NCBI GenBank assembly: GCA_018714325.1
Contig: DVNN01000234.1
Span: 1-46,786, forward strand
Source of the DNA: Candidatus Pelethocola excrementipullorum
Lineage (GTDB): Bacteria; Bacillota; Clostridia; Lachnospirales; Lachnospiraceae
Length of the DNA: 46,786 nt
Direction: 5' to 3'
Shown: positions 16,561 through 36,954 of the stretch, one piece after another
Position numbering within the stretch: position 1 is the first letter of the stretch
Layout of the letters: each line of letters starts with the position of its first letter
The notes under the pieces: model-generated
Databases searched by the model: none
Told to the model about the DNA's origin: nothing
Seen by the model: the letters and a program-made list of their open reading frames with translations, nothing else
Program-made: the position numbers and the translations under genes

Positions 16561-16730
16561 ATCTGTTATATTCCAAAGAGAATTTCACTCTGGGATGACA
16601 ATTTTTAAGTAATTCTTTCTTCGCATTATTCTTTTCATATTTTATATTGTTCTTTTTATTTGATGCTGATATAATTAGTGAAGTTTCTCCAGAATTATGG
16701 AGATTTCATCACTCTCATTTTATGATACCA

Positions 16731-16886
16731 GGGTCAAAAGGTCATGCGTTTCATGCTTTCATGAAAAAGCATGAGTTTGGGACCCGCAAAACATGAGAAA
16801 GTAGCCCAAATAGGGCGGATTTCGAATGTTTTAGGATTGTGCGGAACAATCCGTAGTATCATGGGGGCAAAATACCTTTTGACCCC
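16731..16886. repeat. MITE-like small non-coding element with terminal inverted repeats
   Basis: GGGTCAAAAGGT (16731-16742) / ACCTTTTGACCC (16874-16885) perfect TIRs; flanking near-identical direct repeats TCATTTTATGATAYCAGGG at 16715-16733 and 16891-16909; internal hairpins (GATTGT..ACAATC, GCCC..GGGC). Confidence 0.65.
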
Positions 16887-35168: not shown

Positions 35169-35351
35169 TTAAGCCCCTATACGACTCAGGCATACGTCAG
35201 AAATCACAATAATATCATCGACCCTCACCTGTAAAACCGCCGCCAGTACCATATCTATGGAAGGCAGCGTTGTCCCATGCTGCCACTTATAGATTGTTCT
35301 CCTGTTCCAGGCTATCGCTGAATGATCCGTATCCCTACCATTGAAAGCCAT
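35169..35351 (-). pseudogene. Remnant of an XRE-type helix-turn-helix regulator
   Basis: RRTIYKWQHGTTLPSIDMVLAAVLQVRVDDIIVI resembles the C-terminal half of an XRE HTH domain, but the N-terminal part is missing and no recognisable C-terminal domain follows. Confidence 0.45.
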
Positions 35352-35375
35352 AGCCTTAACTAGGAATTCCTGTTC

Positions 35376-36587
35376 TCATTCAGAAGCCTTAAAATTATAA
35401 ATAGGCTTTATCACCTCAATAATATCCACTGCGCTCTGGATGACATCCACAATATCATGCAAGGACTTATAAGCCATCGGTGCCTCATCCAGTGTTGCTT
35501 CATTTACAGAGGTTGTATAAACACCCTCCATCTCTTTTCGATACTCCTGCATCGATAATTTCTCTTTCGCCTTAGTTCTGGACATCATCCGTCCCGCTCC
35601 ATGGGGAGCTGAGTAATTCCACTCCGGATTGCCCCTTCCAACTGCCAGCACACTCCCGTCACGCATATTGATTGGGATCAGAACCTTATCACCTTTCTGC
35701 GCCGCAATGGCTCCTTTCCGCAGAATCATTTCCTCTACATCGATATAATTATGAATGGTATGAAATCCATCCTTTTCGGACAGTCCGATTCGATCTATCA
35801 AAATCTCTGCGATCAATTCCCGGTTTCTTCTGGCAAATTCCTGACAGATTTCCACATCGTGAAGATAATCCTCCAGAAATTCACCGTACAGATAGCATAG
35901 ATCCTCCGGTATTAACAGTTCTTTTGCGGTCCATTTCAACTGCTTTAATGCCCCTTGTATCTCGGTTCTTCTGCCTGCCGCCTTATATTCCGCAATCAGA
36001 GCATCTCGTTTTGCAAAATACTCTTCTTTCCCCTGATGCAGCCCTATGGCCAGGCGCTGATAATAATCTGCCACCTGTTTGCCCAGGTTCCGGCTTCCGG
36101 TATGAATCACCAGATAATTGGTTCCATCGGCCGACTGGTCGACTTCTATAAAATGATTGCCGCCGCCCAAAGTTCCAAGGCTGCGTTCTAATCGCTTTGT
36201 ATCCCTCAAATTCCTATAACATCTCAACTCCATCAGGTCGAACTTTCTCTGCCTGCCCTCCCAGACATGCTTGCCCGACGGTACGTATCGTGCCGCCTGA
36301 TCCAGTTTTTCCATATCAATCTCATCTTTTCCCAAATTGACCGTATACATCCCACAGCCGATATCAACTCCCACAATATTGGGAACAGCTTTATCTGTTA
36401 TCGTCATGGTCGTTCCTATGGTACATCCCTTTCCGGCATGCACATCCGGCATAATGCGTATCTGGCTGCCCTTTGTAAATTCCTGATCACACATCCTTCT
36501 AATCTGAGCAATGGCCTCATCCTCTATTACCTTTGCATAGCAGACCGCCGTATTCATCGTTCCTTTAATCTCTAACTTATCTAACAT
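35376..36587 (-). CDS. rtcB: RtcB-family RNA-splicing ligase
   Basis: IMPDVHAGKGCTIGTTM, NIVGVDIGCGMYTVNL, LGGGNHFIEVD, HTGSRNLGKQVADYY, APHGAGRMMSRTKAK, DEAPMAYKSLHDIVD. Start MLDKLEIKG (36587) preferred over the 36620 extension because GAGGAGAAAG precedes it. Confidence 0.93.
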   Translation of the reverse strand: MLDKLEIKGTMNTAVCYAKVIEDEAIAQIRRMCDQEFTKGSQIRIMPDVHAGKGCTIGTTMTITDKAVPNIVGVDIGCGMYTVNLGKDEIDMEKLDQAARYVPSGKHVWEGRQRKFDLMELRCYRNLRDTKRLERSLGTLGGGNHFIEVDQSADGTNYLVIHTGSRNLGKQVADYYQRLAIGLHQGKEEYFAKRDALIAEYKAAGRRTEIQGALKQLKWTAKELLIPEDLCYLYGEFLEDYLHDVEICQEFARRNRELIAEILIDRIGLSEKDGFHTIHNYIDVEEMILRKGAIAAQKGDKVLIPINMRDGSVLAVGRGNPEWNYSAPHGAGRMMSRTKAKEKLSMQEYRKEMEGVYTTSVNEATLDEAPMAYKSLHDIVDVIQSAVDIIEVIKPIYNFKASE

Positions 36588-36640: not shown

Positions 36641-36675
36641 CAGAAAAGGCCGCCTATCCACATGGATAAGCGGCC
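36641..36675 (-). terminator. Rho-independent terminator of the small ORF/RNA upstream of rtcB
   Basis: Minus strand GGCCGCtTATCCA TG TGGATAgGCGGCC TTTTCTGTTT. Confidence 0.85.
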
Positions 36676-36702: not shown

Positions 36703-36825
36703 TTACACAACACAACTCTTAAACGCTTTCCCATATGAACGCAACACGATAAAGCTCTGGCTTTGGCGCAGAGCTTGAGGCTGTTCATTATATAGCCAAA
36801 CGTTTAAAAAATTAACTGATTTCAT
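36703..36825 (-). CDS. Candidate 40-aa small protein or leader peptide MKSVNFLNVWLYNEQPQALRQSQSFIVLRSYGKAFKSCVV
   Basis: ATG to TAA, 41 codons, preceded by GGGAAAGGAATCTAATC (purine-rich SD-like); own promoter-like sequence and terminator. Too short for the supplied ORF list. Confidence 0.5.
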   Translation of the reverse strand: MKSVNFLNVWLYNEQPQALRQSQSFIVLRSYGKAFKSCVV

Positions 36826-36878
36826 GATTAGATTCCTTTCCCGCATTCTTCTGCGTCCATTTTTATCACTTGTCTTAC

Positions 36879-36907
36879 ACTATATCATATAAAATTCCTT
36901 TTGTCTT
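36879..36907 (-). promoter_or_regulatory. Sigma-A-like promoter for the small ORF/RNA
   Basis: Minus strand AAGACA (36902-36907) - 17 nt - TATAGT (36879-36884). Confidence 0.5.
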
Positions 36908-36954
36908 TATACTTCTGCTATAAATTTCTAGATATTCCCAGAATTTTCACTCAC

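Follow-up and report, generated by a model that had tools for sequence, protein, structure and literature searches.

On the minus strand of the window (the whole 46,786-nucleotide stretch of DNA analysed here), a short open reading frame (ORF) of 40 amino acids plus stop runs from its ATG at 36825 to 36703, ahead of rtcB, with a promoter before it and an intrinsic terminator after it. The peptide, start and strand are exactly those given by the first-pass annotation. The rtcB gene itself begins with an ATG at 36587, beyond the leader terminator. The features of the locus are as follows.

36901–36912, minus strand: promoter box GTATAAAGACAA (family consensus GTATAATGACAA), which holds the -35 element; present in 62 of 73 leaders
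36879–36884, minus strand: -10 element TATAGT, with extended TG
36842–36855, minus strand: small 5' hairpin CGCA-GAAGAA-TGCG, before the Shine–Dalgarno sequence
36834–36841, minus strand: Shine–Dalgarno sequence GGAAAGGA of the leader ORF, kept in the family alignment
36703–36825, minus strand: ORF of the putative leader peptide, MKSVNFLNVWLYNEQPQALRQSQSFIVLRSYGKAFKSCVV followed by a stop; gaps in frame family-wide, pN/pS 0.57 in frame
36782–36810, minus strand: arm 1, codons ~6–15, anti-antiterminator pairing with arm 2 (z = -9.4); also the candidate codons of the sensor ribosome
36711–36746, minus strand: arm 2, the putative antiterminator strand, codons ~28–39, core TCATATGGGAAAGCG, forming a duplex with the terminator arm
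36648–36675, minus strand: intrinsic terminator GGCCGCTTATCC-ATGT-GGATAGGCGGCC followed by TTTT, with a 5' arm and loop to which arm 2 pairs in the alternative fold
35376–36587, minus strand: rtcB, RNA ligase (PF01139, E 6e-58), the presumed controlled gene
35169–35375, minus strand: remnant of an HTH_3 (XRE) gene, with KWQHGTTLPSIDMVLA.. kept and the N-terminus lost

The signals that had been proposed from the letters were all recovered: the promoter AAGACA-17-TATAGT, sigma-70-like in appearance, lies at 36907–36879, 53 nt before the ATG; GGAAAGGA occupies 36841–36834 ahead of the ATG at 36825; and the terminator stem (36675–36648; 12 bp, 8 GC) stands 28 nt past the ORF stop. An alternative in-frame ATG seven codons upstream (36846) was rejected, as it precedes the Shine–Dalgarno sequence and is not conserved. 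Hairpins of similar shape and differing sequence (GGACATAGTCC, CGGACGGATGTCCG) precede the Shine–Dalgarno sequence in relatives. The leader transcript of the window folds far more strongly than its shuffles (z = -6.2, 0/200), and a search of the leader region against Rfam, at gathering and permissive thresholds, returned no credible family and no T-box. We also considered, and set aside, a tRNA-like or Y RNA ahead of rtcB; ARAGORN detected no tRNA gene in any part of the window. With tRNA genes absent, the window switch seems to control rtcB alone. Elsewhere in the window, a Clostridiales-1 RNA (RF01699), annotated as an sRNA gene, occupies 16723–16861 on the plus strand (93.9 bits).

In related operons a small HTH_3 (XRE) gene comes after rtcB, and such a gene recurs in the leader operons of loci L242, L251, L255, L256 and L258. 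The conserved GTATAATGACAA promoter box may be the binding site of its protein. At L242 (genome G065) the leader-linked rtcB frame is shortened to 358 aa, an internal stretch being missing.

Distribution and translation of the leader family

By DNA similarity to the window element, no homologues were found in 60 relatives and none in plasmids; it took rtcB synteny and an iterated peptide profile, started from 11 peptides, to reach the homologous leaders. Despite the absent DNA similarity, the regions upstream of rtcB homologues have the layout of the window, and the profile search found homologous ORFs before rtcB at about 43 loci, in many Lachnospiraceae genera. Of the 397 Lachnospiraceae genomes sampled, about 50 match the profile at E 1e-3 or better; in the order-level sample it found no leader outside Lachnospiraceae. 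Faecalicatena orotica (L033) is among the isolates that bear a leader. Across the family the leader stands ahead of rtcB, of spare tRNA genes or of both.

The recurring order at dozens of Lachnospiraceae loci is promoter GTATAATGACAA-N16-TATAGT, Shine–Dalgarno sequence, ORF of 35–69 codons and terminator CCGCTTAYC... The box plus TATAGT, with up to three mismatches, was found in 62/73 leaders against 5/73 shuffled sequences, and the exact pattern GTATAATGACAA-N16-TATAGT, present in 3 of 61 genomes, lies at a leader in all three. A terminator whose 5' arm is of the CCGCTTAYC type comes after the ORF at almost every locus that the profile found before rtcB, and of the 48 rtcB-linked candidates scanned, 44 have a terminator directly behind the leader; the exact terminator pattern matched only 4/397 genomes, each time directly before rtcB. 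Shared as it is at dozens of loci, the order of ORF, Shine–Dalgarno sequence, promoter and terminator in the window is not a product of chance.

The leader peptide is clearly translated, judging by frame, gap and codon evidence. A nucleotide alignment built without regard to reading frame has 117 gap runs between the ATG and the antiterminator, of which 116 have a length divisible by three, compared with 25/97 in the spacer after the ORF; gap runs common to relatives are non-independent events, and the in-frame contrast is nonetheless extreme. Substitution bias, which the first-pass annotation had named as a check on coding, points the same way: across 19 independent close pairs the in-frame pN/pS of 0.57 lies below the 0.85 and 1.27 of the other two frames. 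Frameshifts or stops with the base pairing kept had been named as grounds for abandoning the ORF. The frame is kept instead; the Shine–Dalgarno sequence and ATG are conserved across the family, and the one copy with an in-frame stop (L259) lies on a truncated contig. Sequence statistics thus establish a conserved, translated frame.

The peptide product itself is poorly constrained. Its length ranges from 35 to 69 aa, the C-terminus and stop position vary, mean column identity is ~25–30%, there is no Pfam match, and the residues that are conserved appear to be largely dictated by RNA pairing. The single cysteine and the basic, aromatic C-terminus that had drawn attention in the window copy have no conserved role in the leader peptides.

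Competing pairings and ribosome position

Two mutually exclusive pairings involve the ORF. In most loci codons ~29–36 (typically TCA TAT AAG ATA AGC) are complementary, at the same place, to the terminator 5' arm and loop, and in the window the duplex between arm 2 and the terminator 5' arm amounts to -21.9 kcal/mol. RNAalifold, run on a 32-sequence MAFFT alignment, recovered the terminator alone, owing to the diversity of the set and the competition between two structures; the pairings were therefore tested by permutation. With its own partner the antiterminator pairing scores about -15.5 kcal/mol, against about -12.5 kcal/mol with permuted partners (z = -8.1 to -8.3), and none of 20,000 permutations was as good as the true partners, whereas four control regions gave z between -1.1 and +1.3. 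The pairing is also present in nearly all leaders found outside the rtcB set. Arm 1, in the front half of the ORF, pairs with arm 2 by the same own-versus-permuted comparison (z = -9.4), and the folding of the ORF beats synonymous shuffles with a mean z of -1.7. At single loci the duplex between ORF and terminator arm beats codon shuffles (p < 0.05) in only 13 of 44, so the support for this pairing sits in the whole set and not in single loci. At that level the statistics demonstrate the competing pairings.

To model the effect of translation, we placed a ribosome at one codon after another and folded the transcript as far as the terminator loop. The mean modelled probability of the antiterminator is ~0.8 with the ribosome at codons 4–28 and no more than 0.21 with the ribosome from codon 32 on; without a ribosome it is 0.22 on average and 0.0 in the window. 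Once the whole terminator is included, folding at equilibrium tips towards it wherever the ribosome is placed (P 0.87–0.97); antitermination must therefore be kinetic, as is usual for attenuators.

Leader codons and operon tRNAs

In 17 of the 47 rtcB-linked leader loci, a set that includes a few weak profile matches, tRNA genes either separate the terminator from rtcB or closely follow rtcB and the small HTH_3 gene. At eight or more further loci the leader stands directly before tRNA genes and rtcB is absent, as at L241, L246, L257 and L277; at others, such as L255, it precedes HTH plus tRNAs. Three of these sets are listed here.

L241, no rtcB: Phe, Ile, Ser, Lys, Cys, HTH, Gln, Gln; leader MNTMIHNYCFNQISQQSALFCKSQQGF
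L246, no rtcB: Lys, HTH, Glu, Glu, His, Ser
L255, leader before HTH and tRNAs: Tyr, Cys, Gln, Gln, Ser; leader MFRLNFANCYSYQYEQQLVQEYEQSLVC

The operon tRNAs are extra copies; in genome G293 two housekeeping copies of tRNA-Lys lie elsewhere, and the one in the operon shares 83% identity with them. The commonest are Lys-TTT, Tyr-GTA, Glu-TTC and Ser-GCT, and Ala, Gly, Val, Pro, Thr and Asp never occur among them. Genes for tRNA also accompany rtcB where this leader is absent: 23 around rtcB at L048 (a Eubacterium MAG), seven after rtcB at L196, and a single tRNA-Leu(CAG) just before rtcB at L052 and L053 (Coriobacteriia).

The leader peptides mirror the tRNA sets of their operons, as at L241 and L255. 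Over 23 operons with less than 60% peptide identity, leader codons 6–29 match the operon tRNA isotypes in frame with z = 7.7, related loci being not fully independent here and in the pairing statistics; the other frames gave z of 2.0 (+1) and -0.2 (+2), and the antisense frames -1.9 to 1.3. In sliding windows the match reaches z of 4 to 5 for codons 6–29, compared with 0.4 for codons 2–9 and no more than 1.1 from codon 26 on, and codons beyond 30 show none. It holds in rtcB operons alone (n = 14, z = 4.8, p = 5e-5) and at less than 40% peptide identity (n = 9, p = 1e-4), and it survives removal of the two loci that stand out most. It is also present among loci found away from the rtcB collection (n = 10, z = 4.6), of which L242 at least does precede an rtcB. 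In the presence test no enrichment was seen for Lys, the most frequent of the operon tRNAs. The statistics thus bear out both the codon–tRNA match and the operon content. The codons within the sensor region of the window leader, an intact copy, include those for Trp, Tyr, Gln, Ser, Leu and Asn.

A proposed attenuator and its relation to known systems

The family combines a translated short ORF with a Shine–Dalgarno sequence near the transcript 5' end, a terminator before the gene that would be controlled, and an antiterminator that excludes the terminator and is conserved with compensatory change; in the operons with tRNA genes, unlike the window, it also has sensor codons at which a stall would free the antiterminator. 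We propose, with a probability of roughly 80% and on the basis of sequence comparison and modelled folding, that the ORF encodes the leader peptide of a trp-type, ribosome-mediated transcription attenuator, which would answer a shortage of specific tRNAs and have RtcB, with or without replacement tRNAs, as its output. The competing hairpins would be of the trp type (1:2 / 2:3 / 3:4). With the ribosome absent, arm 1 would pair with arm 2, the terminator would form and rtcB would be OFF. During fast translation, the ribosome would cover arm 2 when RNA polymerase arrives at the terminator, again giving OFF. A ribosome stalled at codons ~4–28 would melt arm 1, leaving arm 2 to pair with the terminator 5' arm, so that read-through would turn rtcB ON. 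The overlap between the codon-matched region and the region in which a modelled stall frees the antiterminator is the strongest evidence for this mechanism.

We infer stalling and antitermination in the cell from these patterns, and likewise tRNA damage as the trigger and the substrate of RtcB. The signal would be a shortage of particular charged tRNAs, since the stall codons match the spare tRNAs of related operons; for the window copy the tRNA-specific reading is carried over from relatives, because the window is without a tRNA gene. Such a shortage may arise from cleavage by anticodon nucleases, and the output would be RtcB, able to reseal cleaved tRNAs, together with replacement tRNAs where these are encoded. 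The link to anticodon nucleases and to the resealing of cleaved tRNAs is inferred from the known biochemistry of RtcB. For Lachnospiraceae at large, it is probable, if with less assurance, that this is a class of attenuators in which matched leader codons report a shortage of specific tRNAs and those very tRNAs are made along with an RNA-repair ligase, possibly as a defence against anticodon nucleases.

The first-pass annotation had left a free small protein, a signalling peptide and a leader peptide side by side, and of these the leader peptide fits and the other two do not. That the ORF upstream of rtcB encodes a functional small protein that acts on its own, or a signalling peptide, is very improbable: the conserved frame and start and the in-frame pN/pS of 0.57 would suit it, but the low column identity, the variable C-terminus, the absent Pfam match, residue conservation largely explained by RNA pairing and a complementary terminator closely downstream of the ORF all speak against it. 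Slighter still is the chance of a non-coding structured RNA or small-molecule riboswitch in which the ORF is accidental; the strong fold (z = -6.2) and structure selected beyond synonymous shuffles would be expected of such an RNA, whereas 116/117 gaps in frame, a conserved Shine–Dalgarno sequence and ATG, a codon–tRNA match in the correct frame only and the lack of an Rfam family would not.

A general translation-inhibition attenuator, in which any slow leader ribosome (e.g. an antibiotic-bound one) induces rtcB with no tRNA specificity, as in vmlR and bmrCD, is unlikely, though less so than either of these. The modelled ON region is broad (codons 4–28), and in Anabaena rtcB and a tRNA array answer translation inhibitors generally (PMC10272220). 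Nevertheless, the leader codons are tuned to the tRNAs of their own operon, in frame and only inside the ON region.

The tRNA-specific attenuator would bear on the question of how bacteria that lack RtcR switch on RtcB, and to which signal. The leader codons would name the watched tRNAs, so that the signal would be legible from DNA, and the element would be a case of leader-peptide attenuation that acts on tRNA genes themselves and ties replacement tRNAs to a ligase for tRNA repair. It also predicts which tRNAs come under attack in gut Lachnospiraceae. In the literature searched, mostly open-access papers, a leader-peptide attenuator for rtcB or tRNA genes was not found.

Among known systems, the trp, his and ilv attenuators likewise have a leader ORF rich in sensor codons, exclusive 1:2, 2:3 and 3:4 hairpins and a terminator before the structural gene; here, however, an RNA ligase and tRNA genes would be controlled, and the sensor codons follow the operon tRNAs rather than one amino acid pathway. 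In the antibiotic-responsive attenuators of the B. subtilis vmlR type (PMC9226507), also from Firmicutes, the position of the ribosome in a short upstream ORF decides termination, whereas the rtcB leader system is without a resistance gene and its codons follow the operon tRNAs. T-box riboswitches, again in Firmicutes, sense the state of tRNA and control termination, but they bind tRNA directly and do not need leader translation, and the rtcB leader has no T-box match. In Salmonella, where rtcB lies in the rsr-yrlBA-rtcBA operon, rtcB expression is similarly linked to damaged tRNA, although there RtcR, a CARF-domain activator, senses tRNA fragments by binding them (PMC7790460), in place of a leader peptide and terminator in cis. 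The marks of an RtcR-regulated rtc operon are an rtcR activator gene and a sigma-54 promoter next to rtcBA. In Anabaena, extra tRNA genes and rtcB are likewise silent until translational stress: TrcR represses a 26-tRNA array and rtcB, and translation inhibitors release the repression (PMC10272220). TrcR is, however, a ribbon-helix-helix repressor that acts in trans on separate loci, while here a single rtcB–tRNA operon with an HTH_3 gene would be attenuated. In their different ways, Salmonella RtcR and Anabaena TrcR both make rtcB answer to tRNA or translation stress.
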